64,000 bases of DNA, taken from contig QCPB01000003.1 of assembly GCA_003209795.1 (NCBI GenBank), positions 25,013-89,012 of the forward strand, read 5' to 3'. Made by a program: the position numbers and the translations under genes. Of this stretch, positions 59,104-59,993 are shown piece by piece. The DNA is from Prochlorococcus sp. AG-436-C05 (GTDB taxonomy: Bacteria > Cyanobacteriota > Cyanobacteriia > PCC-6307 > Cyanobiaceae). A model generated the notes under the pieces. That model ran no database searches. It was not told the origin of the DNA and saw only the letters and a program-made list of their open reading frames with translations. Within the stretch, counting starts at the first letter, position 1. Each line of letters starts with the position of its first letter.

Positions 59104-59283
59104 TTACGCTTTTAAACGGCAACCAATGTTTATAGAACCTGAGTCAATCATTCTTCCTAATTTAATTGCAATTGATTCTTCCAATCTTGTAAAATCTGAC
59201 TGATTTTTAGTTACCCAATCCAATTCGTAGAAAGTGATTATTCCTGTTAAATTAATTTTCAGAAAAAGAGCTCCAATGTTCAT
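59104..59283 (-). CDS. Hypothetical protein of 59 residues
   Basis: Not in the track. ATG 59283 to TAA 59104-59106 gives a soluble 59-residue protein with LTGIITFYELDWVTKNQSDF, EESIAIKLGRMIDSG and a single Cys near the end. Balanced composition, with normal hydrophobic spacing and Trp/Tyr/Cys, makes it look like a real gene rather than chance in AT-rich DNA. No membrane segment. No family is known to me. Confidence 0.5.
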   Translation of the reverse strand: MNIGALFLKINLTGIITFYELDWVTKNQSDFTRLEESIAIKLGRMIDSGSINIGCRLKA

Positions 59284-59398
59284 CTTTTAAAAATCACCAA
59301 AGATAATTTAACATTGCCTCGTAATATTTCGTAATAATATAATATTCTTTTAATTTTTCAAAATTTATATTTTTTTTATGAGTAGATTAAAATCCAGT

Positions 59399-59613
59399 TT
59401 AATACTTAAACGCCATATGCTTAGTATTCCTTAATGAAACTCTTTGTCTCCAGACTCTAAATGATTTAGACTTTAGGTTCCTTCGCATAATTTTTATAGC
59501 ATCTTACTCTTGTAACAAACTTGATACCTAATAGCCTCAAAAGGAGTTCTATCTCCCCATCGCATCTAGATAATTCTTTCTACTTCTATATTTTCCATAT
59601 CTATTGTTGACAT
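59399..59613 (-). pseudogene. Decayed DUF2805/TIGR03643 gene
   Basis: Reading from ATG 59613, VERII*MRWGDRTPFEAI matches the family pattern (R/D)RIIEMAWEDRTPFEAI, with TAG 59566-59568 where Glu is expected. Beyond RYQ the frame slips; in the next frame LQE*DAIKIMRRNLK and SFRVWRQRVS with NTKHM follow, matching the family's QFGLSE-xxVIKLMRRELKPSSFKLWRERV-xxxTKH. So one or two stop codons and a single-base loss lie inside a gene of about 70 codons. The start overlaps the end of the DUF393 gene by 13 bases, as in a coupled pair. Family function is unknown to me. Confidence 0.75.
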
Positions 59614-59993
59614 TTATTATTGCAAAGTTTCGCTATACCTGATCTACCTGTAATACTGAGTCTATATTTTGCCCAATATCTATAACCCAACCTTAGAACA
59701 GGTGATAAAATTTGGATTTGTAAAGGATAATAAACCCAGCCTAAACCAATTAATGCATATGAAAATGCGAGAACATCCAACCCTCTAATTATTTCACCAT
59801 TGTCCAATATCCCATGAAGGTTGGACATGGCTTCTGAATATGAAATTTCATTGAATAAAGTTGGATCATAATTTTCATTGTTAATATCTACAAATCTAAT
59901 TTTGTTTGAAATATCTTTCCTTTTTAAAAAAGTAATCTCTCTTAAACAAAGTGGGCAGCCTCCGTCGAATAAAAAAGTTAATTTATTTTTCAT
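59601..59993 (-). CDS. DUF393 (DCC-family thiol-disulfide oxidoreductase-like) protein
   Basis: The 130-residue protein begins FLFDGGCPLCLREITFLK, with the family CxxC motif in a thioredoxin-like start, and continues LHGILDNGEIIRGLDVLAFSYAL and YRYWAKYRLSITGR. This is the DUF393 family, named for its DCC motif. Disulfide chemistry is likely but unproved. A basic Cys-containing end (AKLCNNKCQQ) follows. The dead DUF2805 gene begins inside its last codons, so the two were once probably translated together. Confidence 0.85.
   Translation of the reverse strand: MKNKLTFLFDGGCPLCLREITFLKRKDISNKIRFVDINNENYDPTLFNEISYSEAMSNLHGILDNGEIIRGLDVLAFSYALIGLGWVYYPLQIQILSPVLRLGYRYWAKYRLSITGRSGIAKLCNNKCQQ

Follow-up and report, generated by a model that had tools for sequence, protein, structure and literature searches.

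A DUF2805 relic next to an open DUF393 gene

The window analyzed here is the whole 64,000-nucleotide stretch of Prochlorococcus sp. AG-436-C05 (contig QCPB01000003.1), and positions are counted from its first letter. Its minus strand carries the relic of a DUF2805 gene between an open DUF393 gene and a conserved ORF of 59 amino acids. The features at this locus are as follows, with lesions placed by orthologue alignment.

59601..59993, minus: open DUF393 (DCC1-like) gene, with which the former operon began (PF04134, E = 8e-23)
59365..59598, minus: DUF2805/TIGR03643 pseudogene, what is left of a gene of 78 codons (profile match and alignment with intact orthologues)
59596..59598, minus: conserved start ATG, 2 bases past the DUF393 stop, at the same place in HLII relatives
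59566..59568, minus: codon 11 changed to the stop TAG (relatives have Glu)
59510..59520, minus: one-base deletion causing a frameshift just after RYQ, codons 27-30
59504..59506, minus: codon 32 changed to the stop TAA (relatives have GAA; AG-402-K10 has the same change)
59399..59401, minus: codon 67 changed to the stop TAA (relatives have TCA)
59387..59389, minus: codon 71 changed to the stop TAA (relatives have AAA)
59353..59362, minus: deletion scar, the sole remaining copy of the 10-bp direct repeat TTTGAAAAAT (junction alignment)
59104..59283, minus: conserved 59-aa ORF, just past phr2 in relatives and forming the right flank of the deletion (comparison with relatives)

Taken singly, the N-terminal and C-terminal pieces of the relic match the TIGR03643 profile with E-values of 9e-8 and 7e-12, respectively, far above chance, which bears out the initial annotation in its recognition of family fragments in two minus-strand frames. 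With the two frames joined (X at the stop and the slip), the relic scores 82.7 bits against TIGR03643 (curated cut-off 66.55) and 74.7 bits against Pfam DUF2805 (PF10985; cut-off 22.5); these cut-offs are passed only with the frames joined by X, the raw genome frames scoring 50.5 and 30.4. Most of the conserved profile is recovered, split over two frames, and no single ORF spans the domain because of four in-frame stops and one frameshift. By descent the relic is DUF2805, its score being over the curated cut-off, but it differs from the family (PF10985) in being a pseudogene and not a functional gene; positions 59365-59598 of the minus strand are a recently dead DUF2805 gene.

The TAG, the slip near RYQ and one TAA had been noticed beforehand and are all present, although that count was incomplete, codons 67 and 71 also being TAA. 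Alignment with other Prochlorococcus loci and with TIGR03643, which the initial annotation had proposed, placed the relic and its lesions and altered its limits. The relic reaches about 59365 instead of ending at 59399, and an ATG at 59613 that overlaps the DUF393 stop, formerly read as the gene start, is not the conserved start by comparison with HLII relatives; this is the ATG at 59598-59596, two bases after the stop codon TAG (59603-59601). The upstream DUF393 gene does stay open, as had been thought, and a search for a second DUF2805 copy, also suggested earlier, found none in the window's assembly (1.14 Mb, 40 contigs, 72% complete).

Deletion of DUF2256 and phr2 downstream of the relic

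High-light genomes such as MIT 9302 have the order DUF393 - DUF2805 - DUF2256 - photolyase - conserved 59-aa ORF. The photolyase at this locus of MIT 9302 comprises 496 amino acids with Pfam DPRP and FAD-binding domains, and the photolyase that follows DUF2256 is phr2, already described as PromaPL (PMC9426592, PMC9178010). Deeper-branching Prochlorococcus (loci L158 and L159) share this order, and a locus from another genus (L193) has DUF2805-DUF2256-DPRP, so DUF393-DUF2805-DUF2256-phr2 is ancestral, an operon for a PromaPL-type photolyase, an enzyme that uses light to repair DNA. In the window, DUF393 stands directly upstream of DUF2805 as it would in such an operon, and the relic is followed directly by the 59-aa ORF, without DUF2256 or phr2. 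Compared with the published phr2/PromaPL locus (Haney et al. 2022, PMC9426592; NAR 2022, PMC9178010), where HLII genomes have DUF393-DUF2805-DUF2256 directly upstream of phr2, the window's lineage has therefore lost DUF2256 and phr2 while retaining DUF393 and a dead DUF2805.

The three nearest genomes, as judged by DUF393, are AG-363-P06, AG-402-K10 and AG-409-A22 (99% and 94% complete for the first two, 72% for the window's own genome), and DUF2256 and DPRP likewise do not follow DUF2805 in any of these, both genes being deleted; neither has a match at the locus or elsewhere in the window's genome or in these three. Two copies of TTTGAAAAAT flank DUF2256-phr2 in most of the HLII relatives examined, and alignment of the junction with MIT 9302 places a 1,646-bp deletion between them (L037 3135 and 4781). 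Moreover, a single junction at this 10-bp direct repeat is common to all four genomes of the group. The junction, the scar and the outgroup order together place the deletion in an ancestor shared by HLVI and the window's lineage, and slippage or recombination between the TTTGAAAAAT copies would be a straightforward mechanism for the loss.

As separate observations, the 59-aa ORF, open in the window, is broken in AG-402-K10 (L152 10765-10928), where it has lost its start and is frameshifted, and one incomplete genome (G087) has a frameshifted DUF393 along with a DUF2805 that has no stops.

Decay of DUF2805 in the window and its closest relatives

AG-363-P06 is a published HLVI genome. In a tree built from five flanking genes, (WIN,((P06,K10),A22)), the group receives 100% support, as does the separation of the three relatives from the window, and the pairing of AG-363-P06 with AG-402-K10 is weak (52%). 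The window, at about 93% nucleotide identity, thus groups with AG-363-P06 as sister to all three genomes, and its lineage may be sister to HLVI proper. The evidence for the group comes from four genomes only, apparently all single-cell assemblies.

The state of DUF2805 differs in each of these genomes. The gene is intact in AG-409-A22 and broken by a 20-nt deletion in AG-363-P06; AG-402-K10 has it broken by a TGA and a TAA, with Trp replaced by Cys as well, and in the window it is interrupted by four stops and a 1-nt deletion. The intact copy and the differing lesions imply that the photolyase deletion came first, with DUF2805 still intact, and that the gene was later broken on more than one occasion. 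Outside the group, all of the fully assembled loci that we inspected have an open DUF2805 and none a broken one, and DUF2256 and phr2 follow wherever the downstream region could be read. Those genus members without a DUF2805 match that were checked are contig-end truncations or lack the whole locus, and they are not counted as losses. The window and AG-402-K10 share both the codon-32 TAA and a Gly-to-Cys change at codon 28 (GGT->TGT), against the species tree, and we attribute these shared changes to convergence or recombination.

Pairwise Nei-Gojobori estimates, made on a short gene, give dN/dS values for DUF2805 of 0.21-0.72 in the group versus 0.05-0.17 in HLII pairs, and flanking genes have values of 0.10-0.13 in the group and in HLII alike. 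DUF393, which is still open, shows more nonsynonymous change than the flanking genes (0.16-0.31 in the group versus 0.09-0.10 elsewhere). Pairs that include the window have DUF2805 values of about 0.2-0.3, so the gene was constrained for much of its past and its decay looks recent. Together with the differing lesions and the one intact relative, the raised dN/dS indicates that selection on DUF2805 was relaxed once its partners were gone and that independent breakage followed in two or more descendant lines, probably three, including that of the window.

The assembly is fragmented and 72% complete, and two of the changes are shared with a related single cell, as might be expected if errors of single-cell sequencing or amplification only mimicked a dead gene. 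We consider this very improbable because five lesions fall within 78 codons between flanking genes that are open, two sister genomes bear lesions of other kinds, and dN/dS is raised at non-stop sites too. Continued use of the two frames by programmed frameshifting and stop read-through, or of the region as an RNA, is less credible still: the slip does lie between two conserved halves, and the dN/dS of window pairs could be taken as persisting purifying selection, yet the four nonsense codons are spread along the gene, the relatives have different lesions and no common slip motif, and a recent decay would be expected to leave some constraint behind.

The pseudogene, the deletion scar and sister genomes caught at different points of decay allow the gene losses to be put in order. 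We have high confidence that the DUF2805 pseudogene is the remnant of a photolyase operon, orphaned by the downstream deletion of DUF2256-phr2. Since these two genes were deleted first and group-wide, the window presents the tail end of an operon loss and not the loss of one small gene. The earlier suggestion of a lineage-specific loss thus survives insofar as the gene is dead and the death is confined to the lineage, but it was not a lone event, and the decisive partners were the downstream genes, DUF2256 and phr2, instead of the upstream gene that had been emphasized.

Association of DUF2805 with photolyase

Among 213 other cyanobacterial genomes, chosen to be spread, 41 have DUF2805, 62 have DPRP and 28 have both, giving an odds ratio of 8.7 (p=6e-9), a statistic uncorrected for phylogeny. 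The association is not obligate, because 13 of the 41 genomes with DUF2805 have no DPRP and, in many genomes, DUF2805 does not adjoin a photolyase, DPRP lying far from it. A strict pairing with some other photolyase was also considered and rejected, since queries with Prochlorococcus proteins found none within about 4 kb of DUF2805 in the DPRP-free genomes. Furthermore, dependence of DUF2805 on phr2 is not absolute, given that AG-409-A22 keeps an open DUF2805 after losing phr2.

These exceptions, and the streamlined nature of Prochlorococcus genomes, are what one would cite for DUF2805 having been lost on its own by random streamlining, the adjoining photolyase deletion being a coincidence. 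Against this, DUF2805 is broken in three of the four genomes without phr2, whereas the inspected loci outside the group combine an open DUF2805 with DUF2256 and phr2 as described above, and we judge such a coincidence improbable, if not to the same degree as sequencing error. The orphaning of DUF2805 by the operon deletion remains our preferred reading, under which DUF2805 may act with or on the photolyase, its value having dropped after phr2 was lost.

A more specific proposal, which we put forward tentatively and hold to be somewhat doubtful, is that DUF2805, along with DUF2256 and DUF393, serves Phr2 as a dedicated accessory, for example a small regulator or a maturation or cofactor factor, and that the accessory genes decay once Phr2 is gone. 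If this is true, HLVI would amount to a natural knock-out series in which an otherwise high-light-type Prochlorococcus loses a photolyase system one gene at a time. Three families of unknown function, DUF393, DUF2805 and DUF2256, are tied to photolyase by gene order and shared fate, which gives them a testable role. A structure model of an intact orthologue (pLDDT 72) consists of four helices, for which Foldseek returned only insignificant matches (E of at least 2.4), several of them to helix-turn-helix proteins and sigma region 4; this likeness is a lead at most. No sequence relative of DUF2805 was found among solved structures. The literature on DUF2805 offers only a metagenome correlation with translation genes (PMC3597751), which is not informative, and the papers that mention DUF2256 deal, by their titles, with subjects other than photolyases.

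In MIT 9107 (L156 5900-7388), phr2 is frameshifted and phr1 is split, and the open DUF2805 of this strain differs at three sites that hardly vary elsewhere. It is a possible second case of DUF2805 decay after loss of phr2.

Photolyase-family genes in HLVI genomes

Counting photolyase-family genes by the FAD-binding profile PF03441 gave one match each in the window's genome (G000), AG-402-K10 (G119) and AG-363-P06 (G146), versus mostly 3-4 in near-complete genomes of the genus. The single gene kept is of the phr3 type (479 aa, 87-90% identical to the HLII copy), and the near-complete HLVI genome AG-363-P06 has phr3 only, without phr1, phr2 and phr7. The phr7 neighborhood is present but phr7 is gone in AG-363-P06, AG-409-A22 (G107) and AG-402-K10, and the last also has the phr1 neighborhood without phr1. 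The stretch of AG-363-P06 that was examined did not reveal the phr1 home locus, and the window's contig stops short of this locus.

High-light and LLI strains mostly have four genes (phr1, 2, 3 and 7), and LLII-LLV strains have none (PMC9426592, in which the term HLVI does not occur). Photolyase loss in HLVI resembles that in LLII-LLV in affecting photolyase-family genes of cells that live, in HLVI presumably, at greater depth, but the examined HLVI genomes retain phr3 and so are intermediate between the patterns of four genes and of none that have been published. This phr3-only pattern appears to be unreported, although the kind of process is already known; decay itself is ordinary, and it is the photolyase pattern exposed by it that would interest specialists. 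Judging by gene content, the lineage is shedding photoreactivation genes, and an uncultured high-light clade that has gone from four photolyase-family genes down to one is predicted to be sensitive to UV and to occupy a deeper niche. In anticyclonic eddies, the deep chlorophyll maximum shows an enrichment of HLVI transcripts (PMC12236433), which fits a lower UV exposure, and we infer a causal link whereby loss of phr2, phr1 and phr7 would be tolerable to cells living deeper with less UV.

In the other genus of the family mentioned above (L193 2917-6573), a phr7 homologue directly follows DUF2805-DUF2256-phr2, so that phr2 and phr7 may once have formed one cluster.
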